Positions 21,552-33,613 of a DNA stretch of 40,246 nucleotides are shown here, in pieces. Every line of letters begins with the position of its first letter. Position 1 is the first letter of the stretch. The DNA is from a virus, in IMG/VR virus record IMGVR_UViG_3300042881_003136, positions 1 through 40,246 of that record; one strand, given 5' to 3'. The translations under genes were made by a program, and so were the position numbers. The notes below the pieces were generated by a model. The model did no database searches and had not been told where the DNA came from. It was given only the letters and a program-made list of their open reading frames with translations.

Positions 21552-21574
21552 ATGTCAGTGGTCTATGTTAGGAT
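21552..21574 (+). promoter_or_regulatory. TGTC-class promoter for 21626
   Basis: ATGTCA, 11 bases ending TGT, TAGGAT. No -35 hexamer at 17 bases. The leader carries the hairpin TTAAGGA/TCCTTAA (21592-21608) before the AAAGGAG site. Confidence 0.75.
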
Positions 21575-21591
21575 ACTATGTATAAAGAAAG

Positions 21592-21608
21592 TTAAGGAAA
21601 GTCCTTAA
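21592..21608 (+). ncRNA. Leader stem-loop
   Basis: TTAAGGA-AAG-TCCTTAA, a 7-bp stem near the 5' end of the mRNA. The leader at 23164-23180 has a different but equally perfect 7-bp stem at the same place, so pairing rather than sequence is conserved. Confidence 0.65.
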
Positions 21609-21625
21609 ACTAGAAAGGAGTTCAG

Positions 21626-21820
21626 ATGAACTCAATTATCCTAGAGCCTAGCCACCCAATGGCTAGCAGTAATACAGGCGATAGCCGTATTTTCCGTAAT
21701 ACAGTAGGTAACTACATAAGCCGTAAGGCTTATCTAGAAATGCTATCTACTAGTAAGGGTTGCGTATCTCATAAATACCTTAGCCCTAATGAGTCTGCTT
21801 GGCTCATGAGTGTGAGATAA
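21626..21820 (+). CDS. Small hypothetical protein, first gene of the right early-type region
   Basis: 64 aa, MNSIILEPSHPMASSNTGDS at the start, with AAAGGAG upstream. It is basic and Ser/Asn-rich with SRKAYLEMLSTSKGCVSHKY in the middle. Its leader and first codons resemble those of the gene at 23198, showing a duplicated promoter-leader cassette. No function is recognised. Confidence 0.65.
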   Translation: MNSIILEPSHPMASSNTGDSRIFRNTVGNYISRKAYLEMLSTSKGCVSHKYLSPNESAWLMSVR

Positions 21821-21853
21821 CTCACACCCCACGCCCTGCGTGTCGGCTTGATA

Positions 21854-21876
21854 ATGTCGGTCAAGTCTGATAGTCT
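21854..21876 (+). promoter_or_regulatory. TGTC-class promoter for 21920 operon
   Basis: ATGTCG, 11 bases ending TGA, TAGTCT. It also has TTGATA at 21848-21853, 17 bases from the -10. Drives genes 21920 to 22538. Confidence 0.75.
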
Positions 21877-21919
21877 TACAGACAACAAAATGAAAGTTAT
21901 CTTAGAAAGGATAAACTAA

Positions 21920-22048
21920 ATGAATATCGAACAATATAAAGAAATGGTAGAGGCTCAGAGAGCCGAGAGCCTAAGAAACGCAATTCTTGCGCTAACAAAA
22001 GCGAACAACGCTTTAACTAATAATTTTAATGTAGAGGAGAATAACTAA
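21920..22048 (+). CDS. Small helical hypothetical protein
   Basis: 42 aa: starts MNIEQYKEMVEAQRAESLRN, predicted to be almost entirely helical, with AAAGG upstream. It heads a four-gene chain in which each gene touches the next. No family is recognised. Confidence 0.6.
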   Translation: MNIEQYKEMVEAQRAESLRNAILALTKANNALTNNFNVEENN

Positions 22049-22210
22049 ATGAAAATAACTTACTCAATTTGGCAAGGCTCATTACAGAAGGGCACACTAA
22101 CTTCTAATAGTATTAAAGATATAGTTAAGACTATAGACGAGTTAAACTCAGTTAATCCACCCGTTAAGTTTGAATACCTAGTCCATAAGATTGAACAGGT
22201 AAATAACTAA
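22049..22210 (+). CDS. Small hypothetical protein
   Basis: 53 aa, starts MKITYSIWQGSLQKGTLTSN. It begins immediately after the previous stop, with GAGGAGA in that gene's end as its ribosome-binding site, and shares one base with the next start (TAATG). Predicted alpha/beta. Function unknown. Confidence 0.6.
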   Translation: MKITYSIWQGSLQKGTLTSNSIKDIVKTIDELNSVNPPVKFEYLVHKIEQVNN

Positions 22211-22398
22211 TGAAATCAGGATATCAAGTTAGATTAGAAACTTACAGCGGTGAGGTAATGAATATCCACCTAATTAATAAAGAAGCCGTAAGGTTATTCA
22301 TAGAAGAATTACCTAATCGATTAAGTAAGGGAACTAAAGTCAGCTTCGCTTGCGATGTCTTGGCTATTGGTGGCTCTCTAATGGGGAGAAAAGAATAA
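22210..22398 (+). CDS. Small hypothetical protein, paralogue of 24423-24614
   Basis: 62 aa. The pattern T-x-SGEV followed by IN-x2-AV-x2-F, LP-x2-L and V-x-F-x-CD-L is shared with the 63-aa product at 24423. The two belong to a small paralogous family with four predicted strands and one helix. Both sit in the middle of similar small-gene operons. The role is unknown. Confidence 0.65.
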   Translation: MKSGYQVRLETYSGEVMNIHLINKEAVRLFIEELPNRLSKGTKVSFACDVLAIGGSLMGRKE

Positions 22399-22538
22399 TG
22401 AAATCTATAATCGCTTCCCTAGTAATCTGCTCGGCTATTGTGTCCCTCGATATTCTAACCGATCCAATTTACTCGAATTGTAAACAGACAATAGAAGGAC
22501 GCACCTGCGACCTTGTTGGATATAAGTGGAAGCCTTGA
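22398..22538 (+). CDS. Small secreted or membrane-anchored protein
   Basis: 46 aa from the ATG at 22398 (TAATG overlap, GGGAGA upstream). MKSIIASLVICSAIVSLDIL is a hydrophobic signal/anchor; the remaining 25 residues have two cysteines (NCKQTIEGRTCDLVGY) that could form a disulfide outside the cell. A superinfection-exclusion peptide would fit, without proof. Confidence 0.6.
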   Translation: MKSIIASLVICSAIVSLDILTDPIYSNCKQTIEGRTCDLVGYKWKP

Positions 22539-22541
22539 CAG

Positions 22542-22564
22542 TTGTCAGGGCTAACCGATAGAAT
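22542..22564 (+). promoter_or_regulatory. TGTC-class promoter for 22591
   Basis: TTGTCA, 11 bases, TAGAAT. It lacks the TGn extension but has TTGACA at 22535-22540 (N18), which overlaps the upstream gene's stop codon. TGACA-GT-TGTCA forms a palindrome here. Confidence 0.65.
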
Positions 22565-22590
22565 TAAACTACGAAAGGAAAACTAAACAA

Positions 22591-22761
22591 ATGGAAATAA
22601 CTATAGAAATAAATGAGTGGGGCTTAGGTCTTTACTCTCCTTGGGCTGGCTTCGATTTTACTTGGGGCTTTGCTATCACCACCGCAATTTTAATTTATGC
22701 GATTAGATATTTTAAAAAGTATCCAATCAAGACTCCTAGATTTTTAAGGAGAATTAAATAA
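22591..22761 (+). CDS. Small membrane protein
   Basis: 56 aa. One transmembrane helix (FDFTWGFAITTAILIYAIRY) is followed by a strongly basic tail (KKYPIKTPRFLRRIK), giving an N-out/C-in topology. AAAGGA precedes the ATG, and the stop is shared with the next start. It may act at the host membrane; function unknown. Confidence 0.6.
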   Translation: MEITIEINEWGLGLYSPWAGFDFTWGFAITTAILIYAIRYFKKYPIKTPRFLRRIK

Positions 22762-22952
22762 TGCCAATGACTAGAAAAGATTATCAGGAAACTGCTAAGA
22801 TTTTAAAACAATATGCCGATGAAATTCATCCCGCTATTTTTAATGATTTAGTAGATGAGTTTTCTGAAATGTTTGAAAAAGATAATCCGAGATTTGACCC
22901 AGAGCGATTTGAAAAAGCAACGGGCGCAAATAATTTAGAATTTAATTTTTAA
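22761..22952 (+). CDS. Conserved small phage protein (MPMTRKDY family)
   Basis: 63 aa. The start MPMTRKDYQETAKILKQYAD and the end KDNPRFDPERFEKATGA match a short helical protein seen in many phages of diverse hosts. The fold is probably two or three helices. Its job is not known. It is the last gene before the GC-rich inverted repeat at 22981. Confidence 0.75.
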   Translation: MPMTRKDYQETAKILKQYADEIHPAIFNDLVDEFSEMFEKDNPRFDPERFEKATGANNLEFNF

Positions 22953-22980
22953 TAAATTAAATTAACTCGTTAGGGTGTGG

Positions 22981-23020
22981 CGACACGCCCGAACGAGGCG
23001 CCCCGCAGTCGGGCGTGTCG
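22981..23020. repeat. GC-rich inverted repeat (operon boundary element)
   Basis: CGACACGCCCGA (22981-22992) pairs perfectly with TCGGGCGTGTCG (23009-23020); the 16-base loop contains GGCGCC. No T-run follows. Related elements occur at 23800, 24828, 25909, 26839 and 27769, each between operons. Confidence 0.75.
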
Positions 23021-23027
23021 ATTAAGA

Positions 23028-23043
23028 CGTGATTTTAATCACC
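23028..23043. promoter_or_regulatory. CRP/GlxR-like box (degenerate)
   Basis: CGTGATTTTAATCACC, one mismatch in each half from TGTGA-N6-TCACA; symmetrical. Confidence 0.45.
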
Positions 23044-23069
23044 TGGAAAATTTGAGCGTGAAAAATCCA

Positions 23070-23085
23070 TGTGAGGTTTATCACA
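23070..23085. promoter_or_regulatory. CRP/GlxR-type box
   Basis: TGTGAGGTTTATCACA, a perfect match to TGTGA-N6-TCACA. Centre 64.5 bases upstream of the -10 at 23142. Confidence 0.7.
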
Positions 23086-23124
23086 ATCCCAAATGTCCGT
23101 TTTGGTATGGTTACTGGTCAGTAA

Positions 23125-23147
23125 ATGTCAGTGGTAGGTGTTATACT
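23125..23147 (+). promoter_or_regulatory. TGTC-class promoter for 23198 operon
   Basis: ATGTCA, 11 bases ending TGT, TATACT. Followed by a leader nearly identical in layout to that of gene 21626, with a covarying stem-loop at 23164-23180. Confidence 0.78.
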
Positions 23148-23163
23148 TCTAGTATAAAGAAAG

Positions 23164-23180
23164 TTGAGAAAGGTTCTCAA
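23164..23180 (+). ncRNA. Leader stem-loop
   Basis: TTGAGAA-AGG-TTCTCAA, perfect 7-bp stem. Compared with 21592-21608 several paired positions change together, keeping the stem intact. Confidence 0.65.
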
Positions 23181-23197
23181 ACTAGAAAGGAATTCAA

Positions 23198-23377
23198 ATG
23201 AATTCAACAATAATCGAAGTGTGCAAGACACACGTTCCTAATAAATCTGCTATCTCCGAAGTAGGAGATGACCAGTTTACATTCTGCGAAGTTTGTGAAC
23301 AAAACATTGAGCGTTGGTATAACGATACTGACCCTGAGCGTCTACCTATGTGGACTTCATGGAAAGTAGGTAAGTAA
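23198..23377 (+). CDS. Small zinc-binding protein
   Basis: 59 aa. EVCKTH near the start and FCEVCEQN in the middle give a CxxH/CxxC set suited to one zinc ion. The C-terminus is Trp-rich (RLPMWTSWKVGK). AAAGGA precedes the ATG. It leads a four-gene chain with abutting starts and stops. Target unknown. Confidence 0.65.
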   Translation: MNSTIIEVCKTHVPNKSAISEVGDDQFTFCEVCEQNIERWYNDTDPERLPMWTSWKVGK

Positions 23378-23378
23378 T

Positions 23379-23513
23379 ATGAATACACTTATCTGCGCTT
23401 TCTGCGAAATGGTTTACACCAATGATGTAAAGTTTTGCGGTTTCTGTAATGAATATAAAGGTCTAATGACCATATCCGATTTTGATAAATACTATGGAAA
23501 GGTTTCTAACTAA
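23379..23513 (+). CDS. Small zinc-ribbon protein
   Basis: 44 aa: LICAFCEMVY and VKFCGFCNEYKG provide two CxxC knuckles, a minimal zinc ribbon. It starts one base after the previous stop, and its own stop shares a base with the next start. It may bind nucleic acid or protein; nothing more can be said. Confidence 0.65.
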   Translation: MNTLICAFCEMVYTNDVKFCGFCNEYKGLMTISDFDKYYGKVSN

Positions 23514-23674
23514 TGAATGACTATGAATTAAAAAATAATCTAATAAATCAAATTAAAGATTTAGCGGATAATAAATATACTAAAGAGTTTTCTAACTCTG
23601 CTCTATGGGGTTGTGCAACAGCATTGCTAACCACTGAACAATTAAAAATTATAAAATCGGTAATGGAGAAATAA
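23513..23674 (+). CDS. Small helical hypothetical protein
   Basis: 53 aa, starts MNDYELKNNLINQIKDLADN. Predicted two or three helices. Coupled at both ends by TAATG overlaps. No family is recognised. Confidence 0.6.
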   Translation: MNDYELKNNLINQIKDLADNKYTKEFSNSALWGCATALLTTEQLKIIKSVMEK

Positions 23675-23766
23675 TGAAAATAGAATTTGAAAAAGCAATT
23701 CAATTAGATCATTTAACTAAAGATGAATTGGAATTAGTAGAAAATATTTTAAAAGATTTTAAATAA
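23674..23766 (+). CDS. Micro-protein
   Basis: 30 aa: MKIEFEKAIQLDHLTKDELE and ten further residues, one amphipathic helical hairpin. The ribosome-binding site GGAGAA lies in the end of the upstream gene. Its place in a tight operon supports translation despite the size. Confidence 0.5.
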   Translation: MKIEFEKAIQLDHLTKDELELVENILKDFK

Positions 23767-23799
23767 ATAAAAAGCGTGTTAGCTTGACAAACGCAGAAA

Positions 23800-23830
23800 T
23801 GCGGGGCACCCCGCAGTCGGGCGTGTCGAT
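23800..23830. repeat. GC-rich inverted repeat (operon boundary element)
   Basis: TGCGGGGCACCCCGCA (23800-23815) is a 7-bp inverted repeat, followed by the sequence GTCGGGCGTGTCGATTAAG, also found at 23008. Confidence 0.7.
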
Positions 23831-23839
23831 TAAGTACGA

Positions 23840-23855
23840 TGTGATTAAGTTCACA
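23840..23855. promoter_or_regulatory. CRP/GlxR-type box (distal)
   Basis: TGTGATTAAGTTCACA, perfect TGTGA-N6-TCACA. It is 95.5 bases upstream of the -10 at 23943 and is paired with a second box at 23863. Confidence 0.65.
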
Positions 23856-23862
23856 GAATTTT

Positions 23863-23878
23863 TGTGGTGTAAATCACA
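23863..23878. promoter_or_regulatory. CRP/GlxR-type box (proximal)
   Basis: TGTGGTGTAAATCACA, one mismatch. Centre 72.5 bases upstream of the -10. Confidence 0.6.
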
Positions 23879-23925
23879 CGGCTGAGCGTCTCATTATTTG
23901 GAATTACTGGCGGGTAAGTAGCAAA

Positions 23926-23948
23926 ATGTCTGCCCGTTCTGATAGACT
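23926..23948 (+). promoter_or_regulatory. TGTC-class promoter for 23985 operon
   Basis: ATGTCT, 11 bases ending TGA, TAGACT. The leader begins with a 5-bp hairpin CTTAC-AGA-GTAAG (23946-23958). Confidence 0.78.
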
Positions 23949-23984
23949 TACAGAGTAAGAAAATAAAGAAAGGAAGTAGTCACA

Positions 23985-24185
23985 ATGGCTAACTTATACA
24001 CAATACAAGACCTTTTAATAGGTAAAAAATACGATAGCAATTCTCTAAGTGGAGTAATTGTATCTGCTGAAAAATCTAACCAACCAATTTGGTATGGTGA
24101 AAATACTGATGCTTATTTAGTAGAAATTAACTGCGGAACTTTGAAAAACCAATTCCGCACAATAGCAGTAAAGGTTGGTGAATAA
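23985..24185 (+). CDS. Small beta-rich hypothetical protein
   Basis: 66 aa, starts MANLYTIQDLLIGKKYDSNS, with AAAGGAAG upstream. The alternating pattern of the second half (AYLVEINCGTLKNQFRTIAV) suggests an SH3- or OB-like small barrel. It is the first gene of a five-gene operon. No family is recognised. Confidence 0.6.
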   Translation: MANLYTIQDLLIGKKYDSNSLSGVIVSAEKSNQPIWYGENTDAYLVEINCGTLKNQFRTIAVKVGE

Positions 24186-24187
24186 TA

Positions 24188-24310
24188 ATGGGTTATGTTG
24201 AAATCTTTCGCCTTGATGAGCAAGGTGCTGGCTGGGTAGATTTATCTGAGGCTACCCCGCAGGAATTATTAGACTTAGAAATTGGATTATTTCAGGAAGG
24301 TGCTATCTAA
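24188..24310 (+). CDS. Small acidic hypothetical protein
   Basis: 40 aa, starts MGYVEIFRLDEQGAGWVDLS and ends in an acidic helix. It is separated by 2 bases from the upstream stop and overlaps the next start by one base. Function unknown. Confidence 0.55.
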   Translation: MGYVEIFRLDEQGAGWVDLSEATPQELLDLEIGLFQEGAI

Positions 24311-24426
24311 TGATAAACTCCGTAATGAGATTTGATTGCAACGAATGTTCAGGCTCAGGCTTGATTTTTTGGGGCGATAATGATAACTATGATGTTGAAA
24401 CTTGCGAATGTGAGGTGCTAGTTTGA
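24310..24426 (+). CDS. Small zinc-binding protein, paralogue of 25120-25305
   Basis: 38 aa. CNECSGSGLIFWGDNDNYDV followed by ETCECE gives CxxCxGxG ... CxC, like half of a DnaJ-type zinc finger. The gene at 25120 has the same order (CGWCYGQGWQ, GND-DYDV, CECN), so both derive from one ancestor. Possibly a protein-interaction module. Confidence 0.65.
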   Translation: MINSVMRFDCNECSGSGLIFWGDNDNYDVETCECEVLV

Positions 24427-24614
24427 TACCAGCAACAATAACAACCTTTTCAGGAGAAGTAAAAAAACTAGAGTTTATAAATCCTAATGCAGTTGATTTT
24501 TTTACAAAGAAATTGCCTGCAGTATTGCCCGAAAATGTTTCGGTATATTTTGAATGTGACTTATTAGATTTGCGTGGAACAATTAGAAGCGCAATTAAAT
24601 CGGATGGAGAATAA
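24423..24614 (+). CDS. Small hypothetical protein, paralogue of 22210-22398
   Basis: 63 aa from a TTG start that overlaps the previous TGA (TTGA). It shares the SGEV, IN-x-NAV-x2-F, LP-x-VLP and V-x-F-x-CDLL pattern with the 62-aa product at 22210. The paralogues differ mainly at the ends. Function unknown. Confidence 0.6.
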   Translation: MIPATITTFSGEVKKLEFINPNAVDFFTKKLPAVLPENVSVYFECDLLDLRGTIRSAIKSDGE

Positions 24615-24615
24615 A

Positions 24616-24816
24616 ATGAAAACAATTAAACACTCTTTAGATTTTGTAACTGAGTTAGATGAAAATGACCCAACTGCTAAAAGATTATTAGCGATACCTG
24701 AAAATGAAAGAGAAATGTTGTTAAAAGATATGTTAATTAATATGTTTGATTTGGACAGTTTAATTGATGCAGTAAATGCTGGCAACTCTTGGGCTCATCT
24801 AAAACTTTTAAAATAA
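24616..24816 (+). CDS. Small acidic helical protein
   Basis: 66 aa from the ATG at 24616, with GGAGA 5 bases upstream; a longer in-frame start at 24574 overlaps the previous gene and is less likely. It begins MKTIKHSLDFVTELDENDPT and is helical with an amphipathic C-terminal half. It is the last gene of its operon. Confidence 0.6.
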   Translation: MKTIKHSLDFVTELDENDPTAKRLLAIPENEREMLLKDMLINMFDLDSLIDAVNAGNSWAHLKLLK

Positions 24817-24827
24817 AAAGCTTGGAT

Positions 24828-24869
24828 CGGGTGTGGCGACACGCCCGACCGAGGGGCCCCGCCCGAAAT
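24828..24869. repeat. GC-rich inverted repeat (operon boundary element)
   Basis: CGGGTGTGGCGACACGCCCG forms an imperfect hairpin and is followed by GAGGGGCCCCGCCCG, with the palindrome GGGGCCCC. Same family as 22981. Confidence 0.65.
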
Positions 24870-24907
24870 GTCCGATTTACGTAGATTAAGTAGATTGCCT
24901 GGAAAGT

Positions 24908-24923
24908 TGTGAAATAGATCACA
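24908..24923. promoter_or_regulatory. CRP/GlxR-type box
   Basis: TGTGAAATAGATCACA, perfect TGTGA-N6-TCACA. Centre 52.5 bases upstream of the -10 at 24968. Confidence 0.7.
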
Positions 24924-24950
24924 AAATTAAATTACGGCGTGTCGTAGAAA

Positions 24951-24973
24951 ATGTCACCCCAACCTGATAGGCT
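24951..24973 (+). promoter_or_regulatory. TGTC-class promoter for 24998 operon
   Basis: ATGTCA, 11 bases ending TGA, TAGGCT. The leader begins with a 6-bp hairpin CTTAGA-TTA-TCTAAG directly before AAAGGA. Confidence 0.78.
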
Positions 24974-24997
24974 TAGATTATCTAAGAAAGGAAAACT

Positions 24998-25120
24998 ATG
25001 AAAGACTACTACGACGAATACTATGATGATTACTATTCTAAAGAACTGCCACCTAGCGGTGATAGTTGTTATTGTCGCACTATGGTGTTATGCTCTAATT
25101 GTATGAAGGGATACAAATAA
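24998..25120 (+). CDS. Small Tyr/Asp- and Cys-rich protein
   Basis: 40 aa. The first half is Tyr/Asp repeats (MKDYYDEYYDDYYSKE); the second has CYC and CSNC, enough ligands for one zinc ion. AAAGGAAA precedes the ATG and the stop is shared with the next start. No family is recognised. Confidence 0.6.
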   Translation: MKDYYDEYYDDYYSKELPPSGDSCYCRTMVLCSNCMKGYK

Positions 25121-25305
25121 TGGGAAAGTTTAAGGAAAGTATTACTAATATATTGACCTGCGGTTGGTGTTATGGTCAAGGCTGGCAATATGTCGGTAAT
25201 GATGTAGACTATGATGTATGGGCTTGTGAGTGTAATACTTACAATATACCTGCTGATGAAATACTGGAGTACCACCAATTATTCAAAACTAAGGAGAACG
25301 CATAA
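25120..25305 (+). CDS. Small zinc-binding protein, paralogue of 24310-24426
   Basis: 61 aa from the ATG at 25120. TCGWCYGQGWQYVGNDVDYD followed by VWACECN repeats the CxxCxGxG...CxC layout of the 38-aa product at 24310, with a longer acidic helical C-terminus. It is linked by one-base overlaps to both neighbours. Confidence 0.65.
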   Translation: MGKFKESITNILTCGWCYGQGWQYVGNDVDYDVWACECNTYNIPADEILEYHQLFKTKENA

Positions 25306-25514
25306 TGGAATATAACTACTCAATTACCACTTCCTATGACGGGGAGTTGGTTCACACCCTGCGTGTTAGCGATATGCTAGAGGCAGTAGACGCTTGGAAT
25401 AAATGTGTAGATTTTGGCGACGCTAAAGAATACGCAACCTATAACTTGTCCGACCCAACGGGTAAGATGTATACAAAGAACTTCTATAGAAATGGAGTAG
25501 TAAGTGGGAAATAA
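25305..25514 (+). CDS. Small hypothetical protein
   Basis: 69 aa, starts MEYNYSITTSYDGELVHTLR, with AAGGAG upstream. Predicted alpha/beta with a helix at DMLEAVDAWNKCVDFGDAKE. It overlaps the next gene by 11 bases. Function unknown. Confidence 0.62.
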   Translation: MEYNYSITTSYDGELVHTLRVSDMLEAVDAWNKCVDFGDAKEYATYNLSDPTGKMYTKNFYRNGVVSGK

Positions 25515-25815
25515 TCTATCTCAGGAATTAGCCGAAGGTCTATTAGACTTAGACTTAGAAACTCAGATAACAATTCAATTAAGGAATAATCATTATCCGC
25601 CCGTTCCTTATTCAATGGTTCAACCTTGTATTGACGCTATTGACGCTTACAATGATGGTGAGCATGATAAGTTAATTCAATTACCAACCGACGGGTTTGA
25701 TGCTAATGGTGAGCCGTTCCAAATTACTTGGCGTGGTAAAACTTCAGCACCTGCTCATGCCTTAGTTGAAGCACACCACTTAGAAAATTGGATTATAGAA
25801 AGAGAGTTGTGTTAA
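25504..25815 (+). CDS. Hypothetical protein
   Basis: 103 aa from a GTG start. It begins MGNNLSQELAEGLLDLDLET and has the segment QLRNNHYPPVPYSMVQPCID, then an acidic, beta-rich C-terminal half. The product is acidic and soluble. It is the last coding gene before tRNA-Asp, presumably on the same transcript. No family is recognised. Confidence 0.62.
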   Translation: MGNNLSQELAEGLLDLDLETQITIQLRNNHYPPVPYSMVQPCIDAIDAYNDGEHDKLIQLPTDGFDANGEPFQITWRGKTSAPAHALVEAHHLENWIIERELC

Positions 25816-25831
25816 TTTATAATTAAATAAA

Positions 25832-25905
25832 GGTTCGTTAGCTCAGTTGGTTAGAGCGCTACCCTGTCACGGTAGAGGTCACGGGTTCAAGTCCCGTACG
25901 AATCG
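25832..25905 (+). tRNA. tRNA-Asp (anticodon GTC)
   Basis: Acceptor GGTTCGT (25832-25838) pairs with ACGAATC (25898-25904). The D arm has AGCTCAGTTGGTTAGAGC, the anticodon stem CTACC/GGTAG encloses CTGTCAC (anticodon GTC), and the T arm is CACGG-GTTCAAG-TCCCGT-like. CCA is not encoded. It serves GAC/GAT codons, frequent in the acidic small proteins here. Confidence 0.93.
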
Positions 25906-25908
25906 CAA

Positions 25909-25931
25909 CACGCCCGAACGGGGCGCCCCGC
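25909..25931. repeat. GC-rich inverted repeat (operon boundary element)
   Basis: CACGCCCGAA then CGGGGCGCCCCG (25919-25930), a 12-base perfect palindrome. It immediately follows tRNA-Asp and may end its transcript. Confidence 0.65.
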
Positions 25932-25980
25932 ATTTTCTGGCATTTACGTACATTAAGCAGAGCCCCACAAAATTTGTGGA

Positions 25981-26003
25981 ATGTCAGTCAAAGCTGCTAG
26001 AAT
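25981..26003 (+). promoter_or_regulatory. TGTC-class promoter, leaderless, for Gp88-like gene
   Basis: ATGTCA, 11 bases ending TGC, TAGAAT, then exactly 6 bases to the ATG at 26010. A different palindrome, CCACAAAATTTGTGG (25965-25979), abuts the TGTC element. Confidence 0.75.
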
Positions 26004-26009
26004 TAAATC

Positions 26010-26729
26010 ATGAAGCTAAAAAGATCAAATGACAGGAAGGTGGCCAACCTTGTCACAAAAAATGGAAAGCAAGCCGCTATGGCAAATACTTTTGGATTAC
26101 CTGCTGGTAAAGAATTCTCATGTCCTGGCGCTACTAGTATATGCGAAAGTGTCTGCTACGCAGGAAAGCTTGAAAAACTCTTCAAAGGAGTAAAAACTAA
26201 TCTGCTGCATAACTGGGAGCTCCTTAAGGACGCAGATCTTCAGACAATGTACTCTCTAATTTCTGACATGATCTCAGAATTTAAAACAGAATGCGTAAAG
26301 AAAAATGCGCCTATGTTATTCCGTATACACTGGGACGGAGATTTTTTTAACGAAGACTACACACATGCATGGAAGCTGGTTATTGAAGAACAGCCCGATA
26401 TTAAATTTTGGGTATATACTCGTGTTAAGTCCGCTGCACTAATTCTTAAAGACATCCCTAACTTATCACTATATTATTCTACGGATGATGAGAATCTACC
26501 AATTGCTACAGAATTAAAACAGGTTAACGGTGTTAGACTTGCATACCTAGGAAAAACTTTTGCTCTTACAGAAACTAAGATGAAAGAAATAACTGGCAAA
26601 GTTGGTGCAAAGTGCCCTGAAAACAATAAGTCTATTCCGCTAATTAGCAATGCAGGATCTGCCTGCGTCTCTTGTGGATTGTGTGTATACGGTAAGGCGG
26701 ATATTCGATTTAGCGCTACCAAAAAATAG
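26010..26729 (+). CDS. Gp88-family protein
   Basis: 239 aa. Recognised from actinophages such as mycobacteriophage L5 gp88: Cys-rich start FSCPGATSICESVCYAGKLE, central FRIHWDGDFFNEDYTHAWKL, the conserved FWVYTRVKSA, and a C-terminal CVSCGLCVYGKA. Eight cysteines suggest one or two metal or Fe-S centres, and the central part resembles a TIM-barrel-like enzyme core. The biochemical role is not established. Here it is predicted to be translated from a leaderless mRNA made by the TGTC-class promoter. Confidence 0.88.
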   Translation: MKLKRSNDRKVANLVTKNGKQAAMANTFGLPAGKEFSCPGATSICESVCYAGKLEKLFKGVKTNLLHNWELLKDADLQTMYSLISDMISEFKTECVKKNAPMLFRIHWDGDFFNEDYTHAWKLVIEEQPDIKFWVYTRVKSAALILKDIPNLSLYYSTDDENLPIATELKQVNGVRLAYLGKTFALTETKMKEITGKVGAKCPENNKSIPLISNAGSACVSCGLCVYGKADIRFSATKK

Positions 26730-26835: not shown

Positions 26836-26838
26836 CGC

Positions 26839-26879: not shown

Positions 26880-26895
26880 TGTGATTTTTCCCACA
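26880..26895. promoter_or_regulatory. CRP/GlxR-like box
   Basis: TGTGATTTTTCCCACA, one mismatch. Centre 71.5 bases upstream of the -10 at 26959. Confidence 0.5.
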
Positions 26896-26941
26896 AAAAT
26901 AATCAGTAAAATGTCCGATTTGCCCTATTCATAAATTGTAA

Positions 26942-26964
26942 ATGTCGGTCAGTTCTGATAGAGT
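26942..26964 (+). promoter_or_regulatory. TGTC-class promoter for 26991
   Basis: ATGTCG, 11 bases ending TGA, TAGAGT. A weak TTGTAA lies 18 bases upstream of the -10. Confidence 0.75.
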
Positions 26965-27193: not shown

Positions 27194-27216
27194 GTGTCTG
27201 ACCCCTATGTTAGACT
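27194..27216 (+). promoter_or_regulatory. TGTC-class promoter for 27254
   Basis: GTGTCT, 11 bases ending TGT, TAGACT. No CRP-type box upstream. Confidence 0.7.
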
Positions 27217-27791: not shown

Positions 27792-27851
27792 CAAATCGGA
27801 CATTTACGACATTAAGTAAGAATGCCGTAGATTCCCAAGATAAGTAGACAA

Positions 27852-27874
27852 ATGTCAGCCAACCCTGATAGACT
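27852..27874 (+). promoter_or_regulatory. TGTC-class promoter for DUF932 gene
   Basis: ATGTCA, 11 bases ending TGA, TAGACT; TAGACA at 27845-27850 is 18 bases from the -10. Confidence 0.75.
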
Positions 27875-27905: not shown

Positions 27906-28922
27906 ATGGCTCATAACCTAGAAGAGCAAGATGGTCAAGTTGCTTTTGCGTTACGTGGAAAACCTGCGTGGCACAATTTAGCAAATGCTATATTCGACCA
28001 AGAAGCAGAAATCTCAACTAAAGAGATGTTAGATTCTGCTAAATTATCTAACTGGAATGTCAGACTTGAAGACGTTGCAGAACATATCCCTAGCACATGG
28101 AGAAATAATTCAGAAAATTTCTTTGTGATTCGTGATAACCCATTCGACGCTGGCACTGATGTTTTATCTGTTGTCGGTTCACGTTATAAGGTAGTTCAGA
28201 ATGAAGATTTATTTGCGTTTGCTGATAATCTACATGATGGCAACCCTGATGTTAAGTGGGAGTCTGCTGGCTCATTAAAGAAGGGCAGAGTTGTATTCGG
28301 CTCCGTTGCAATTCCTCGTGAAATGGTATTAGACCCACAAGGTATCGCAGATACAACTAAGTTGTATTTAATTGTTTGGACTTCACATGATGGTTCTGTT
28401 GCAGTTCAGGCAGCAATCACACCCGTTCGTGTTGTTTGCCAAAATACTCTAAATCTTGCAATGCGTAACTCTAAGCAGTCATTCAAGATTCGTCATACTC
28501 AGACCGCTGAGGGAAGAATTCTCGCAGCACGTCAAGCACTTGGATTAACTTTTCAATATGCTGATGAGTTTGAGAAAGAGGCTCAGGAATTATTCCAGAC
28601 CGCTTTCACCGATAAGCAATTCTCTCAACTAATTAACACCATTTACCCTAAGCCTGAAAAAGACGCTAAGGGTGCACTAAAGAAATGGGAAAATAAAGTT
28701 GTTTTAATTGACGAGTTGTATCATAACTCACCAACTAATAGCACAATCAAGGGCACTGCTTGGGGCGCATTAAACGCTTTGACTGAGCGACTTGATTATT
28801 TCCGTTCTGCTCGCAAGAGTAATGGCGAAGCAATGTTTGCTTCCGCTTCAGGTTTTGACGCTCAGATTAACTCTGAGAAAAATAAAATTCTGAAGATGGT
28901 TAAAGAATTCGCTAAAGCGTAA
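27906..28922 (+). CDS. DUF932 phage/plasmid-like protein
   Basis: 338 aa from the ATG at 27906 (MAHNLEEQDGQVAFALRGKP), which has AAAGG upstream; a start at 27852 would lie inside the promoter. Family motifs: GKPAWHNLA, the DVLSVVGSRYKVVQNEDLF segment, ITPVRVVCQNTLNLAMR and the C-terminal NNP-like KGTAWGALNALTERLDYFRS. Members occur in many phages and plasmids, often near DNA-metabolism genes; the mechanism is unknown. It has its own strong promoter and terminator, so it is probably abundant. Confidence 0.88.
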   Translation: MAHNLEEQDGQVAFALRGKPAWHNLANAIFDQEAEISTKEMLDSAKLSNWNVRLEDVAEHIPSTWRNNSENFFVIRDNPFDAGTDVLSVVGSRYKVVQNEDLFAFADNLHDGNPDVKWESAGSLKKGRVVFGSVAIPREMVLDPQGIADTTKLYLIVWTSHDGSVAVQAAITPVRVVCQNTLNLAMRNSKQSFKIRHTQTAEGRILAARQALGLTFQYADEFEKEAQELFQTAFTDKQFSQLINTIYPKPEKDAKGALKKWENKVVLIDELYHNSPTNSTIKGTAWGALNALTERLDYFRSARKSNGEAMFASASGFDAQINSEKNKILKMVKEFAKA

Positions 28923-28929
28923 TTCTAAA

Positions 28930-28963
28930 GTGGGGGGGCGAAAGCTCCCCCACATTTATTTTA
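28930..28963 (+). terminator. Rho-independent terminator after DUF932 gene
   Basis: GTGGGGGGGC-GAAA-GCTCCCCCAC, a 10-bp stem with a GAAA tetraloop, followed by ATTTATTTTAT. Confidence 0.88.
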
Positions 28964-28992
28964 TAAAGCTGCGTGAGCGGGGCGGGTCGGTG

Positions 28993-29008
28993 TGTGACGA
29001 AGATCTCA
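28993..29008. promoter_or_regulatory. CRP/GlxR-like box
   Basis: TGTGACGAAGATCTCA, one mismatch. Centre 62.5 bases upstream of the whiB-like -10, the same distance as at 21499. Confidence 0.5.
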
Positions 29009-29045
29009 TTACGTACGATCACCAAAATGCCACAGAATTTGGAGA

Positions 29046-29068
29046 ATGTCAGTTTGGTCTGCTACTAT
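29046..29068 (+). promoter_or_regulatory. TGTC-class promoter, leaderless, for WhiB-like gene
   Basis: ATGTCA, 11 bases ending TGC, TACTAT, then 5 bases to the ATG at 29074. Confidence 0.75.
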
Positions 29069-29073
29069 TAATT

Positions 29074-29304
29074 ATGAACAAAATATCGGGTTGGCAACTA
29101 GAGGCAAATTGTAGTCCTGATGACTTCGATTTATTCTTTAGTAATTCCAAAACAAAAAGAAAACAGGCGTTATCTCTATGTGGCACTTGCCCAGTTATAA
29201 ATGAATGCTTAGATTACGCTATGGAAAATAATGTAGAGCACGGTATATATGGTGGAAAAACTCCTGAACAAAGAAAGGTTCCAAGTGGACGTAGAAATAT
29301 ATGA
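29074..29304 (+). CDS. WhiB-like iron-sulfur transcription factor
   Basis: 76 aa from the ATG at 29074; longer frames start inside or upstream of the promoter. Four cysteines (Cys13, Cys36, Cys39, Cys45 in CSP and CGTCPVINEC) bind a 4Fe-4S cluster, and GIYGGKTPEQR (57-67) is the Wbl turn and basic region. WhiB proteins bind region 4 of the vegetative sigma factor and alter promoter choice. The family is restricted to actinobacteria and their phages. It is driven by a TGTC-class promoter, so it could regulate itself and that promoter set. Confidence 0.93.
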   Translation: MNKISGWQLEANCSPDDFDLFFSNSKTKRKQALSLCGTCPVINECLDYAMENNVEHGIYGGKTPEQRKVPSGRRNI

Positions 29305-29512
29305 AGTTAATTATGCATGTTCCCCTGGTGGTGTTGATTGCTGGGAATTAAATATCCAGGATTACGGGTATAGTAAATGCGTGTCTGATTTTAAGACTGC
29401 TGGAGACGCACTACAATATGTACTTGACAACTACCCACACGAGGAATTAAACTTAAATGTAAGGTCTCTCAACTGGTATTTTAAGGAGTTCGAAGATGAA
29501 TACGCAGTATAA
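29285..29512 (+). CDS. Small hypothetical protein
   Basis: 75 aa from a GTG at 29285 with AAAGG 6 bases upstream, overlapping whiB by 20 bases; an ATG at 29249 would overlap it by 56 bases. It reads MDVEIYEVNYACSPGGVDCW onward and ends FKEFEDEYAV. Predicted alpha/beta, acidic. It starts a long chain of overlapping small genes, probably co-transcribed with whiB. Confidence 0.6.
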   Translation: MDVEIYEVNYACSPGGVDCWELNIQDYGYSKCVSDFKTAGDALQYVLDNYPHEELNLNVRSLNWYFKEFEDEYAV

Positions 29513-29657
29513 ACCATATACAATAGATGAACTAGTAACTCATATTTATGAAGAAAATTTTTCTCACATAGATTTTATGGACAATATGGGTGGCGGAGAT
29601 TGTGATTGCCATATTCATACAACCCTTAATACTATATTAGAATACTGGGGTGAGTAA
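29496..29657 (+). CDS. Small hypothetical protein
   Basis: 53 aa, starts MNTQYKPYTIDELVTHIYEE, with AAGGAG upstream inside the previous gene. The GGGDCDCHIHTT segment has Cys and His residues that could bind metal. Overlaps both neighbours. No family is recognised. Confidence 0.6.
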   Translation: MNTQYKPYTIDELVTHIYEENFSHIDFMDNMGGGDCDCHIHTTLNTILEYWGE

Positions 29658-29890
29658 TGACTAGTTTCTTAGATAAAGAAAATGCAGAGATTGTTGCCAT
29701 AACATATACTGAAATAGGTGACCATTTATTTGAGCAATGGCATAATTCTAATTTAGATGAGGGAACATTTTGGGCTGATTACCAAATTGCTTTGATGTGT
29801 GATAGCAATTATCTAAAAGGTAGATTTAATCAGTTTTACAATTTAACACCCGATGAGGATGAATATATAGAATGGGATGAGGAAGCATAA
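29657..29890 (+). CDS. Small acidic hypothetical protein
   Basis: 77 aa, starts MTSFLDKENAEIVAITYTEI and ends NLTPDEDEYIEWDEEA. Strongly acidic, helical, with aromatic residues; such proteins are often DNA mimics or inhibitors, but that is only a possibility here. TAATG overlaps at both ends. Confidence 0.6.
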   Translation: MTSFLDKENAEIVAITYTEIGDHLFEQWHNSNLDEGTFWADYQIALMCDSNYLKGRFNQFYNLTPDEDEYIEWDEEA

Positions 29891-30048
29891 TGTTAGGTTA
29901 TACAAAAAGAGATTTAGCAGATATGACATATGGGGTATATCAGGCTGATTTGTTAATTAACTCTGATGAAAATCCTGCTATTCATAACTATCTAGTAACC
30001 GCTCATGATTTTCTAATGGGCCTACGGTCGGAAGGATACTTTGACTAA
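29890..30048 (+). CDS. Small helical hypothetical protein
   Basis: 52 aa, starts MLGYTKRDLADMTYGVYQAD. GAGGAAG lies upstream in the previous gene. Predicted two helices. One-base overlaps on both sides. Confidence 0.58.
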   Translation: MLGYTKRDLADMTYGVYQADLLINSDENPAIHNYLVTAHDFLMGLRSEGYFD

Positions 30049-30188
30049 TGAAACCAACATACAAGATTGAACTAGAGTTAGATGAACTCTGGTATAAAGC
30101 GCTACTTGACTTCCTATTTGTCGACATATATGAAAATGAGATATGTAAGATAGTTAATGTAGAAAGGTTAGAAAATGTCACAGCCTAA
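30048..30188 (+). CDS. Small hypothetical protein
   Basis: 46 aa, starts MKPTYKIELELDELWYKALL. One strand then a hydrophobic helix (WYKALLDFLFVDIYENEI). Overlaps the next gene by 14 bases in another frame. Function unknown. Confidence 0.57.
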   Translation: MKPTYKIELELDELWYKALLDFLFVDIYENEICKIVNVERLENVTA

Positions 30189-30339
30189 TAGTATGATTGA
30201 GTATATGAAGATACATCTAATTAGTTTAGAACAGGATTTGGAAAAGATTGACTATGTTAATGAACACCACTTCTATAGGGTTAAAGAGGCTGAGATTGCT
30301 ACTACCCGCCACCTTCTGTCAGTAGCGGAGGAACTATGA
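30175..30339 (+). CDS. Small coiled-coil hypothetical protein
   Basis: 54 aa, starts MSQPNSMIEYMKIHLISLEQ; AAAGG lies 7 bases upstream. Heptad-like leucines (LISLEQDLEKIDYVNEHHFY) suggest a short coiled coil. ATGA overlap with the next gene. Confidence 0.58.
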   Translation: MSQPNSMIEYMKIHLISLEQDLEKIDYVNEHHFYRVKEAEIATTRHLLSVAEEL

Positions 30340-30611
30340 TTATGTCTGATGAGTTAAGTCCACATTTACAAAAGCTGGTAGATATGGGTTTAACTGGTGT
30401 TGATATCATGCATGGAGAACTAAAGAATCTGATGTATGAGGCTGAACAAGAATATATAACTTGGCAAAAGGTTGAAGAGGATACGGGCTATGATGACGCT
30501 ATGGATTCTATGGAACGTAAGTATTGGGAAGGACAACTTGACGCCTTGACAGGCATGTATCAATTGACGTACAATTTATTATTCGCTATTAATGAAAGGG
30601 AAAGCAAATGA
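30336..30611 (+). CDS. Helical hypothetical protein
   Basis: 91 aa, starts MIMSDELSPHLQKLVDMGLT; the second Met is an alternative start. Almost entirely helical and acidic, with a GVDIMHGELKNLMYEAEQEY segment. Overlaps the next gene by 4 bases. No family is recognised. Confidence 0.62.
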   Translation: MIMSDELSPHLQKLVDMGLTGVDIMHGELKNLMYEAEQEYITWQKVEEDTGYDDAMDSMERKYWEGQLDALTGMYQLTYNLLFAINERESK

Positions 30612-30790
30612 AAGATAAATTAAATATACTTAATGAATGGCTATATGAGGCCGAAGAGAAACTTAATGATCTATACACAGATGAATTAGATGGCTTAGGA
30701 GATCCAGTGGTATTCCCGCTAGATCAGGCAGAACTTGAAGGTACTATCGAAACTCTTAATTCTGTGATAGGATTGTTAAGTGCTAAATAA
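30608..30790 (+). CDS. Small helical hypothetical protein
   Basis: 60 aa, starts MKDKLNILNEWLYEAEEKLN, with AAAGGGAAA upstream. A helical hairpin separated by DELDGLGDPVVFPLDQ. It may pair with the similar-sized neighbour at 30336. Function unknown. Confidence 0.6.
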   Translation: MKDKLNILNEWLYEAEEKLNDLYTDELDGLGDPVVFPLDQAELEGTIETLNSVIGLLSAK

Positions 30791-31124
30791 TACCGAGATT
30801 ATGTCTAGAACAGACGAGATGTTTGACCTTCGTCTAAAAGCAACTAGTTATACAGAAAAGTATAGCAGACCGTCATTGGCAGATGTTACGGCCTTTGATA
30901 CAATTATGGACATTATTAAAGAGCAAGAGGAACTCGGTGAGGAAAGAGAATATGTCTTTAATGCCGACATTTATTCTATATGGGGCGATATACTTAATAG
31001 TAATATTGTTTTTGGGTTAGACTATGGCATAGAACAAGTAAATGAAGAAATACAGCAATGGTTAATAGATTCAGGTAATATGAGTTTCATTGAAGACCTA
31101 GAGGAAGAGGATTTAGATGCGTAA
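30780..31124 (+). CDS. Acidic hypothetical protein
   Basis: 114 aa from a GTG with AGGA 7 bases upstream; the ATG at 30801 is an alternative start. Acidic and helical (MDIIKEQEELGEEREYVFNA), ending FIEDLEEEDLDA. The last codons overlap the start of the secreted protein gene downstream. No family is recognised. Confidence 0.6.
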   Translation: MLNNTEIMSRTDEMFDLRLKATSYTEKYSRPSLADVTAFDTIMDIIKEQEELGEEREYVFNADIYSIWGDILNSNIVFGLDYGIEQVNEEIQQWLIDSGNMSFIEDLEEEDLDA

Positions 31125-31647
31125 GTTACTAACACTGATTATTTCGGGATTGATTGTACTAACCCCGTCAACTGCACAGGCATCTCCATACTATACAGAG
31201 AATGTATACTCTGAGGAGTTTGAGACATTTAACTATTGGTGGGCCAACTGGATTTTAGACTGGCTGTCATTTCATGAAGGACTTTTTGGATATAACTATT
31301 CAAGCAATGATGTGGAAGAAGTGGTTGCAGAACCACAACCATTCTTCTATCCAAGAGCAGAAGTATCGGATGTAAGTTTTGGTTTTGCTCCACGAGGTGA
31401 ACCAATAGTTCCATCCAGCGCTGTAATGCCTTCTCCTGATTACAGATGTTCGATTGCTTGCAGCGGTACCACTGGTTCTGTTGGATTTTCTCCAGGTGAA
31501 GTTGGATACAATGATGGAGTAAAATTTATTGCACATGACCCAAGTACTGGAAGAATATATGAAGCAATAAACTTTAACAATGTAAGTCATAATTGGGTTG
31601 CTATGGGTTGTGACTCAAATGCCACATCGGCATGCTTTACTAAATAG
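31117..31647 (+). CDS. Secreted protein with Sec signal peptide
   Basis: 176 aa. Signal peptide MRKLLTLIISGLIVLTPSTA with a probable AQA-S cleavage at about residue 22. The mature part is rich in Trp, Tyr and Phe at the start (FETFNYWWANWILDWLSFHE), then Pro/Ser-rich, with four cysteines in the last 70 residues that may form disulfides (RCSIACSG and GCDSNATSACFTK). It is probably released to the cell surface, where it could change receptor access. No family is recognised. Confidence 0.72.
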   Translation: MRKLLTLIISGLIVLTPSTAQASPYYTENVYSEEFETFNYWWANWILDWLSFHEGLFGYNYSSNDVEEVVAEPQPFFYPRAEVSDVSFGFAPRGEPIVPSSAVMPSPDYRCSIACSGTTGSVGFSPGEVGYNDGVKFIAHDPSTGRIYEAINFNNVSHNWVAMGCDSNATSACFTK

Positions 31648-31653
31648 ATAAAA

Positions 31654-31687
31654 GCTGTGCCCTGGTCCCTTTCTACCAGGGTGCAGC
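31654..31687 (+). terminator. Hairpin terminator (no T-run)
   Basis: GCTGTGCCCTGGT (31654-31666) pairs with ACCAGGGTGCAGC (31675-31687), a 13-bp stem with G-T pairs and an 8-base loop. It ends the long whiB-led operon. Confidence 0.65.
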
Positions 31688-31728
31688 GATCTAGCTCGTT
31701 AATCTTAAAACGGGGCATTAAGTAGGAT

Positions 31729-31757
31729 TTGTTATTTTTCCCAGAATTCTGTATACT
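31729..31757 (+). promoter_or_regulatory. Leaderless sigma-A-type promoter for 31764
   Basis: TTGTTA (31729-31734), 17 bases, TATACT (31752-31757) preceded by TG, 6 bases, ATG at 31764. Confidence 0.72.
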
Positions 31758-31763
31758 TAATAT

Positions 31764-31952
31764 ATGAATACAACCTTGGAATATGTATTAACAACTCAAG
31801 ACCGTTGCGATAAATGTCAATCCCAGGCTTACTATTTATGTAAAAGCGTTTCGGGACAACTGCTATTCTGTGCCCATCATTTCAATGCTAATAAAGAATC
31901 ATTAACTAAATGGGCTTACGAGATCATCGACGAGTCCTCTAAAATATCCTAA
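31764..31952 (+). CDS. Small zinc-finger protein (DUF7455-like)
   Basis: 62 aa. RCDKCQSQAYYLCKS and LLFCAHHFNAN match the short actinobacterial/actinophage family with CxxC...CxHH ligands, which I know as DUF7455. A helix follows (LTKWAYEIIDESS). It probably binds one zinc ion; the role is unknown. Leaderless promoter upstream. Confidence 0.75.
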   Translation: MNTTLEYVLTTQDRCDKCQSQAYYLCKSVSGQLLFCAHHFNANKESLTKWAYEIIDESSKIS

Positions 31953-31969
31953 GCTAATCCCAATTTAAA

Positions 31970-31999
31970 TTGACAAATGCCCTGCGAATGGGGCATAAT
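31970..31999 (+). promoter_or_regulatory. Promoter for 32029
   Basis: TTGACA (31970-31975), 18 bases, CATAAT (31994-31999). The spacer contains the hairpin-like GCCCTGCGAATGGGGC. GAGGGGG precedes the ATG. Confidence 0.55.
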
Positions 32000-32028
32000 T
32001 ATATTATAAGAAAAAGAGGGGGTGGAAT

Positions 32029-32151
32029 ATGACAAAGAGAGAATACCTAGTTTCACTTGGACAAAAAGTAGGAAAGCGTGGGCGCTTTACGAAGGAACAA
32101 GTAGAACTTATTAAGAAGGCAGAATCAGAAGGCAAGACTTTTACTAAGTAA
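32029..32151 (+). CDS. Small basic protein
   Basis: 40 aa, starts MTKREYLVSLGQKVGKRGRF with GAGGGGG upstream. Highly basic, with RGRFTKEQVELIKKAESEG resembling the short helix-turn motif at the C-terminus of Lsr2-like DNA-binding proteins. DNA binding is plausible, not shown. Confidence 0.6.
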   Translation: MTKREYLVSLGQKVGKRGRFTKEQVELIKKAESEGKTFTK

Positions 32152-32174
32152 TTGTCAGTCCTATAGTATATAAT
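32152..32174 (+). promoter_or_regulatory. TGTC-class promoter for 32202
   Basis: TTGTCA, 11 bases, TATAAT; the TGn extension is absent but the -10 is perfect. It begins directly at the upstream stop codon. Confidence 0.72.
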
Positions 32175-32201
32175 TAAATAAACCCTACAGAAAGGAATCC
32201 A

Positions 32202-32966
32202 ATGCCGAATTGGGTGTACAACACTTTGACCATACAAGGTCCAAAGTCAGAAATAGATTCTATCAAGGATAGATTAAACAAGCCATTTACATTGGCACAA
32301 GAAACATTTGGTATGGGGGATATTAGCACTTCAGGCTTCCCCACCAAAATTACACAGGTAACTTATTCTAACCCTGTATTTGCATTCTTCAACATACATT
32401 CATATAAGGATGATGGTATTACGGATGAAGAGTATGCCTGCCAACCTGACCGTGGTGGAATTAATATGGATGACCCTGACTGGTTCCGCAAATCTATTGA
32501 GTTTGCTAAAACTCAGAAGGATTGGTATTCATGGAATAACTCTAACTGGGGAACCAAGTGGGATGTAGCAGTTCGTGATGATGACAAGTATCCTGAAACT
32601 GAATTACTTGAATATAAATCAGAAGGCGAAGATAACTGGCTTGTATATAAATATGAGACTGCATGGTCGCCTGCTGTAACTATTCTAACTAAACTAAGTA
32701 ATCTTGTTCCTAACTCTGTGCTCACATTAGAGTATGAGGAAGAAACAGGTTGGGGCGGAGAATATGAAATTATCCGTGGTGAGGTTAGAGAATTAGCAGA
32801 ATGGGAAAACCGTTGCTATGCCTGCCAATCTTTTAATACATTAGATTATTGTGAAGACGACTGCGGAGAATTCTGTTCAGAATGCAATCAAGGTTCTTGG
32901 CAAGATGAAGAGGCAATGGCAAAATGTGAGACACATGCTTCTTTATTAGAAAAAGTAAAAGCATGA
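32202..32966 (+). CDS. Api92/YubB-like protein with C-terminal zinc cluster
   Basis: 254 aa, AAAGGA upstream. MPNWVYNTLTIQGPKSEIDS is the signature start of the Api92-like ferredoxin-fold family (DUF1281 group); SNWGTKWDVAV and KYETAWSPAVTIL are further family motifs. The C-terminal 50 residues add cysteines (RCYACQSFN, DYCEDDCGEFCSECN) likely to bind one or two zinc ions. Members occur on phages and conjugative plasmids with no known activity. It overlaps the next gene by 4 bases. Confidence 0.82.
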   Translation: MPNWVYNTLTIQGPKSEIDSIKDRLNKPFTLAQETFGMGDISTSGFPTKITQVTYSNPVFAFFNIHSYKDDGITDEEYACQPDRGGINMDDPDWFRKSIEFAKTQKDWYSWNNSNWGTKWDVAVRDDDKYPETELLEYKSEGEDNWLVYKYETAWSPAVTILTKLSNLVPNSVLTLEYEEETGWGGEYEIIRGEVRELAEWENRCYACQSFNTLDYCEDDCGEFCSECNQGSWQDEEAMAKCETHASLLEKVKA

Positions 32967-33613
32967 CAGAAAAATGGAATAAGTATAGTTATTTAAATAC
33001 AGAAAATAACTGTTTAATTGAGGTTACTCATTTAGAAGGGACTGAGGAGAAGCTAATTCTCACCCCGCTTAATAATAGCCCGTACTTACTATTGTCAGTC
33101 GAGGATGCTACAATTAAAGAACACCCTACAAACGAAAGGAACACCATGGAACAAACAACTACAGTACCCGAAACATACAATCCAAATCTGCTTGTGACGT
33201 ACAAGAAGATTGCTGGAACATACGCTGCTCCTGAAGCGCCTGAATACATTACCGACAAAGTTGTCGATATTGAATGGGCCCTGGATGGTGCACGTCGCTC
33301 AGAGGCCCGTGCCAACAGTCTAAATTCTAAAATAGAAGAGATTCAATCTTTTATGACAGAAGACAATTGGTACAACCCTAACACTGAAGCATCTGAGATC
33401 CTCTCAGAACTTGAAAGAATTCTTGATTTTAATCCAGTTAAGCAAATTGAGTTTACTGGAACAATCAGATTCAGCGGAACAATTGAGGTCCCTTTAAATG
33501 AGTCAGAAGACTTTGATTTGTTCTACCACCTGCAAGACAATCTAACCCTGGATTCATATGATGGCAATACATCAATCGATTCATATGAGGTAGAAAATGT
33601 CGACCAGGAATAA
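32963..33613 (+). CDS. Hypothetical protein with internal promoter and second start
   Basis: Two nested products are likely: 216 aa from 32963 (ATGA overlap with the upstream gene) and 155 aa from the ATG at 33146, which has AAAGGA and its own TGTC-class promoter at 33092. The short form reads MEQTTTVPETYNPNLLVTYK onward, is acidic, and has a coiled-coil-like ARRSEARANSLNSKIEEIQS and a beta-rich end. The promoter DNA is translated in frame in the long form (residues 44-61). Confidence 0.65.
   Translation: MTEKWNKYSYLNTENNCLIEVTHLEGTEEKLILTPLNNSPYLLLSVEDATIKEHPTNERNTMEQTTTVPETYNPNLLVTYKKIAGTYAAPEAPEYITDKVVDIEWALDGARRSEARANSLNSKIEEIQSFMTEDNWYNPNTEASEILSELERILDFNPVKQIEFTGTIRFSGTIEVPLNESEDFDLFYHLQDNLTLDSYDGNTSIDSYEVENVDQE
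33092..33114 (+). promoter_or_regulatory. TGTC-class promoter inside gene 32963-33613
   Basis: TTGTCA, 11 bases ending TGC, TACAAT, then AAAGGAACACC before the ATG at 33146. All parts of the class are present although the region is also coding. Confidence 0.75.

Follow-up and report, generated by a model that had tools for sequence, protein, structure and literature searches.

The middle promoters of phage T4 depend on sigma appropriation by MotA and AsiA: their -35 element gives way to an activator box lying around -27 to -30, and transcription uses the housekeeping sigma factor. In mycobacteria and other Actinobacteria, the RecA-NDp promoters follow the published consensus tTGTCRgtg-8nt-TannnT (PMC5656591). 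Their activator PafBC is located between the promoter DNA and domain 4 of sigma-A, with PafB contacting the -26 motif and PafC contacting domain 4, and has single-stranded DNA (ssDNA), bound by the WYL domains, as its effector (PMC11804915). Here, an array of repeated promoters is described in a small-gene arm of IMG/VR virus record IMGVR_UViG_3300042881_003136, of which positions 1 to 40,246 were analysed (40,246 nucleotides, hereafter the window). Each promoter consists of a DTGTCD hexamer, 11 bases and a TAnnnT -10 element, and the RecA-NDp consensus, rewritten as hexamer-N11-TAnnnT, has this same layout. Since promoters of this geometry also stand before DNA-repair genes of the presumed host group, among them recA and dnaE2, the promoter class is an already known one, and the repeated phage element is very probably the actinobacterial RecA-NDp promoter, which would be read by host PafBC together with sigma-A. 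The likeness extends to the box sequence, the box-to-minus-10 spacing, the position near -26, the lack of a -35 element and, in the host group, the occurrence of the element at recA and at genes of the dnaE2 cassette. In contrast to the known promoters, those described here are phage-borne, occur in about 13-20 copies per gene arm, frequently have a phased CRP-type operator, mostly read ATGTCAG in the box and carry an extended -10. As in T4 middle promoters, an activator box replaces the -35 element and the housekeeping sigma factor would be used, whereas the box sequence is another one and the proposed activator is a host stress regulator instead of a phage protein.

All 13 sites listed in the initial annotation were found, with a spacer of exactly 11 bases in every one, and all 13 precede a gene. 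Eleven of them carry the extended TGn, as had been stated, and good -35 hexamers are indeed scarce (2/13; TTGATA at 17 bp for site 21854 and TTGACA at 18 bp for site 22542). With the hexamer at -29 to -24, the earlier suggestion of an activator box near -27 holds, and the sites form a real non-canonical class without a -35 element. The hexamer itself was defined too narrowly: the conserved box exceeds it and reads A-W-T-G-T-C-A-G-T-S-S. Within the window, TGTC is found at all sites, R at 11/13, the following G at 12/13 and the T at 8/13; the strict form TTGTCRGTG has no exact copy and NTGTCRGTG has two.

Chance does not account for these sites. On the + strand of the window, DTGTCD-Nk-TAnnnT gives 21 matches at k=11, where local Markov samples predict about 3.0 (Poisson P = 1.3e-11 for the whole window) and other spacings yield 0-6 matches, while no N11 match was found on the - strand of the window (about 3 expected per strand). 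In the arm (21.5-33.2 kb), 15 matches are present where 0.88 are expected (P=5e-14). A fixed-spacing matrix of 27 columns, trained on 582 sites from related phages with the window and its near-identical contigs left out, recovers the 13 claimed sites plus one at 30175. These 14 matches score 15.9-27.0 bits and lie exclusively on the + strand; the next-best match in the window reaches 9.5 bits, and the per-sequence maximum of the null averages 6.1 bits, with 12.9 as the top over 60 null sequences. Seven literal matches (3963, 8848, 25072, 37137, 37910, 38902 and 39619) do not reach 6 bits and are attributed to chance. In 11/13 sites, the start codon lies 47-74 nt past the hexamer and a GAAAGGA-type ribosome site is found nearby. 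The promoters at 25981 and 29046 are leaderless (ATG at +29 and +28, respectively), and leaderless ATGs at +28 to +30 indicate that the transcription start is likely placed as for a sigma-A promoter.

The array is shared by 80 IMG/VR relatives of the GP88-family protein encoded in the arm, with 1095 forward and 68 reverse N11 motifs, and the position of the box before GP88 is unchanged in many of them. A logo of 741 distinct related-phage sites reads AAWTGTCAGTSS-N4-TGnTAnAAT with the box WTGTCAGTSS. Among themselves, six related records (106-115 kb) are syntenic. In record G032, the sites make up a 12-kb block of small genes and nearly all are either leaderless or followed, 47-59 nt later, by an ATG, while the structural and replication genes are without such sites; other records show a similar clustering. 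Overall, this large freshwater actinophage lineage has a small-gene arm of 12-15 kb with 13-20 promoters of the class. The consensus pattern occurs in at least 120 stretches of IMG/VR, and most of the 79 new loci examined come from the same lineage. Records G115-G117 have few proteins in common with the lineage and carry 11-23 copies of the stricter ATGTCAGTGGT form. A megablast search against cultured phages gave nothing beyond a tRNA-sized match. Cultured relatives have DUF932 and GP88 at two sites in each record, and in record G016 a perfect terminal repeat of 3269 bp lies inside the arm. This suggests that the arm is located in terminal repeats and would be the first part to enter the cell. 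The left-arm arrays of the Stanwilliamsviridae (Streptomyces phages Karimac, Tomas, NootNoot and Bmoc) lie in a homologous arm (DUF932, GP88) and also have a promoter before most genes. Unlike the present class, they combine a TAGACT-type -10 with a TTG -35 element 17-18 bp away, and have neither the -26 box nor CRP-type palindromes.

The element was also looked for in genomes of the host group. A narrow pattern gave few sites in six host genomes, suggesting hosts without the element, which was overturned by looser patterns and the matrix. In upstream regions of LanE-43 (Planktophila), WTGTCR-Nk-TAnnnT peaks at k=11 (9 versus 0-4), and TTGACA shows no peak at 17. The phage-trained matrix yields 14 matches of at least 10 bits on the LanE-43 chromosome, including the promoters of a PD-(D/E)XK nuclease, recA-recX, the dnaE2 cassette, an MmeI-type enzyme, a DnaQ-like exonuclease and RmuC, and a site upstream of nrdR. 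Six of these 14 share the leaderless geometry of the phage sites, with the start codon at +29/+30, and each of the three strict LexA boxes in the genome adjoins a matrix match. An adjacent pair of WYL genes is present in all three Nanopelagicales (LanE-43, IMCC19121 and AAA044-N04), and the LanE-43 pair matches PafB and PafC of Mycobacterium smegmatis (7P5X) with E=2e-35 and 5e-29. No WYL protein was found in 15 phage records.

These host sites also bear on who reads the box. The initial annotation had offered a phage-encoded or phage-recruited activator, or an altered sigma factor. Of these, a recruited activator agrees with the PafBC-type box and the host repair promoters; an altered phage sigma factor is not supported, nor is a phage-encoded MotA-like protein as the preferred candidate. 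A phage sigma factor was rejected, as no Sigma70_r2 was found in 11 phage records and the Sigma70_r4-like matches are small open reading frames (ORFs) of 46-69 aa, all below the cut-off. A MotA-like phage activator, either a WhiB-like protein or a 48-aa sigma4-like helix-turn-helix (HTH) protein, might bind the box and work with sigma-A, and candidates are available: all 8 phage records of at least 97 kb encode a WhiB-like protein, the whiB of the window is itself downstream of a class promoter, and an HTH-like ORF of 46-53 aa is kept beside a 188-aa gene in the six records compared (G014, G016, G024, G026, G027 and G032; e.g., L109:2783-2929). We consider this unlikely, with the identical element standing before repair genes such as recA and dnaE2 in a host relative, where the phage protein is absent; the HTH ORF is under the Sigma70_r4 cut-off, and nothing ties either protein to the box. 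Another possibility might be that the class is the plain extended -10 type of sigma-A promoter found in low-GC actinobacteria, in which the box is a host housekeeping element without an activator. TGn is common and the hosts carry the same element with leaderless starts, but strong LanE-43 sites are few and mainly at DNA-repair rather than housekeeping genes, and in the logo of the relatives' sites the box is conserved far more strongly than TGn, making a purely housekeeping role quite improbable.

The box also shares TGTCA with the stoperators of phage L5, the consensus of which is GGTGGMTGTCAAG, and a GP88 homologue occurs in cluster A mycobacteriophages as well, so it could be regarded as the operator of a phage repressor. 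Every copy is, however, in fixed 11-bp phase with a -10 and oriented toward the downstream gene, and the same element occurs at host repair genes. The L5 stoperator reading was dropped in view of the fixed phase and the lack of such an array in cluster A phage KingCyrus, and we see very little chance for a repressor operator. Co-activation by WhiA and WhiB is scarcely credible either. WTGTC is the complement of the WhiA motif GACAC, a partial match, and the phage encodes a WhiB, but the orientation of WhiA sites is not fixed (PMC3781837) and the box is usually A/TTGTCAG rather than GTGTC. This candidate was dropped, the host targets being repair genes rather than division genes.

Two observations were made in the host genomes themselves. 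The MmeI-type restriction-modification enzyme of LanE-43 (L216:16899-19643) has a leaderless RecA-NDp-type promoter, which suggests a defence gene within the damage regulon. In three Nanopelagicales genomes (L155, L156 and L157), a conserved AATGTCAGTnnCnCCTGCTATCTT promoter precedes a region without a called long ORF, possibly a damage-induced RNA.

Upstream of many arm promoters, a second layer is seen in the form of CRP/GlxR-type palindromes (TGTGA-N6-TCACA with at most one mismatch). The window has eight, all inside the arm, compared to 1.5 expected. In the relatives, 251/437 non-redundant promoters have a palindrome, with centres at -54.5, -64.5, -74.5 and -84.5, and 211/268 centres fall within 3 of 10 helical phases. 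Across whole phage genomes, exact palindromes are found almost exclusively before class promoters. The core GTGA-N6-TCAC occurs 54 times in seven phage genomes, versus 0-6 at other spacings, and is strongly avoided genome-wide by the host group, with one copy in LanE-43 (15-46 at other spacings) and none in 400 kb of IMCC19121. Each of three hosts encodes one CRP-family protein (PF00027), and none was found in 10 phage records. From these patterns, we infer that a host CRP/GlxR regulator would help to activate the arm. The palindromes and their 10-bp helical phasing resemble CRP/GlxR class I activation; unlike there, the predicted phage sites are centred at -54.5/-64.5/-74.5/-84.5 from an assumed start and are paired with a PafBC box. 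The G115-G117 lineage has no CRP/GlxR-type palindromes, so the PafBC-type box alone may suffice.

In the proposed mechanism, host PafBC would be activated by ssDNA, which probably stems from the entering phage, its replication or the degradation of the host chromosome. This WYL-domain activator would recognise the WTGTCRG(T) box around -26 and recruit sigma-A RNA polymerase to the extended -10 (TGnTAnnnT) without a -35 element, while a host CRP-type protein at the upstream operators might assist loading at many arm promoters. With PafBC-type promoters throughout and a CRP/GlxR-type operator at many of them, the small-gene arm would thus be switched on by two host regulators that the phage does not encode. 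PafBC binding, CRP binding and the timing of expression are all predicted from sequence patterns. More tentatively, the promoters could be hybrids that require PafBC at -26 and the phased CRP/GlxR-type regulator together, rewired to control a host-takeover arm with a damage alarm plus a nutrient signal as the switch.

Several points weigh against a PafBC-driven arm. The consensus R is broken at two window sites and the following G at one. The LanE-43 matches of at least 10 bits (14) are no more numerous than with column-permuted matrices (mean 12.7), so their identity and position are informative and their count alone is not. PafBC needs ssDNA to be active, which fits poorly with an early role of the arm, as expected here, unless ssDNA is present at entry. 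Finally, the host is putative and inferred to be among the Nanopelagicales; when 296 genomes of the host order were searched for the phage DUF932 protein, a single match (57%) was obtained, on a short contig lacking the motif, and therefore no firm host link.

Phages are commonly seen as triggering or escaping the damage response of their hosts. In the present case, a widespread lineage seems to have copied the damage promoter itself at least 12 times, so that a host ssDNA sensor would drive phage genes. No report of PafBC-type promoters in phages was found in a partial coverage of the literature; the promoter class is known, and its massed use by phages, joined to phased CRP-type operators, is to our knowledge unreported. 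If true, DNA damage, nutrient state and infection would be coupled in these cells, which is relevant for the takeover of low-GC freshwater actinobacteria, among the most abundant lake bacteria. The phage promoters also offer natural material for studying PafBC sigma adaptation.

Table 1. Promoters, upstream palindromes and annotated genes of the arm in the window.
Feature	Position	Strand	Remarks
CRP/GlxR-type palindrome TGTGATGGACATCACA	21499..21514	.	centre ~-74 of promoter 21552
RecA-NDp-type promoter, ATGTCAGTG-N8-TAGGAT	21552..21574	+	27.0 bits; gene ATG 21626
CRP/GlxR-type palindrome	21811..21826	.	centre ~-64 of promoter 21854
RecA-NDp-type promoter	21854..21876	+	17.8 bits; gene ATG 21920
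RecA-NDp-type promoter, also TTGACA at 18 bp	22542..22564	+	16.8 bits; gene ATG 22591
CRP/GlxR-type palindrome	23070..23085	.	centre ~-76 of promoter 23125
RecA-NDp-type promoter	23125..23147	+	25.6 bits; gene ATG 23198
CRP/GlxR-type palindrome	23840..23855	.	centre ~-107 of promoter 23926
CRP/GlxR-type palindrome, 1 mismatch	23863..23878	.	centre ~-84 of promoter 23926
RecA-NDp-type promoter, T for R at position 6	23926..23948	+	21.4 bits; gene ATG 23985
CRP/GlxR-type palindrome	24908..24923	.	centre ~-64 of promoter 24951
RecA-NDp-type promoter, C at position 7	24951..24973	+	17.6 bits; gene ATG 24998
RecA-NDp-type promoter of leaderless GP88 gene	25981..26003	+	22.5 bits; ATG 26010 at +29
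GP88-family gene (PF17338), leaderless	26010..26729	+	
CRP/GlxR-type palindrome, 1 mismatch	26880..26895	.	centre ~-83 of promoter 26942
RecA-NDp-type promoter	26942..26964	+	20.9 bits; gene ATG 26991
RecA-NDp-type promoter, GTGTCT variant	27194..27216	+	16.8 bits; gene ATG 27254
RecA-NDp-type promoter of DUF932 gene	27852..27874	+	22.6 bits; ATG 27906
DUF932 gene (PF06067)	27906..28922	+	
CRP/GlxR-type palindrome, 1 mismatch	28993..29008	.	centre ~-74 of promoter 29046
RecA-NDp-type promoter of leaderless whiB-like gene	29046..29068	+	17.7 bits; ATG 29074
WhiB-like regulator gene, 76 aa (PF02467), behind class promoter	29074..29304	+	
14th site, absent from the initial annotation	30175..30197	+	15.9 bits; candidate leaderless 44-aa ORF at 30205 (+30)
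RecA-NDp-type promoter	32152..32174	+	25.8 bits; gene ATG 32202
RecA-NDp-type promoter	33092..33114	+	25.2 bits; gene ATG 33146

Besides these features, a perfect actinobacterial LexA/SOS box, CGAACACCTGTTCG, is present at 21427-21440, immediately 5' of the promoter arm. It is restricted to the window and near-identical contigs and was not found in the other relatives. Repeated intergenic strings (AAATGTCCGATTT and its complement; TTTACGTACATTAAG-like) at 27793-27808, 26911-26923 and 24867-24879 sit between terminator-like hairpins and promoters. Outside the arm, at 39516-40064 on the - strand, an HslV/proteasome-subunit-like protein (PF00227, phrog_1040) is encoded by a gene of 184-188 aa that is kept in the relatives.

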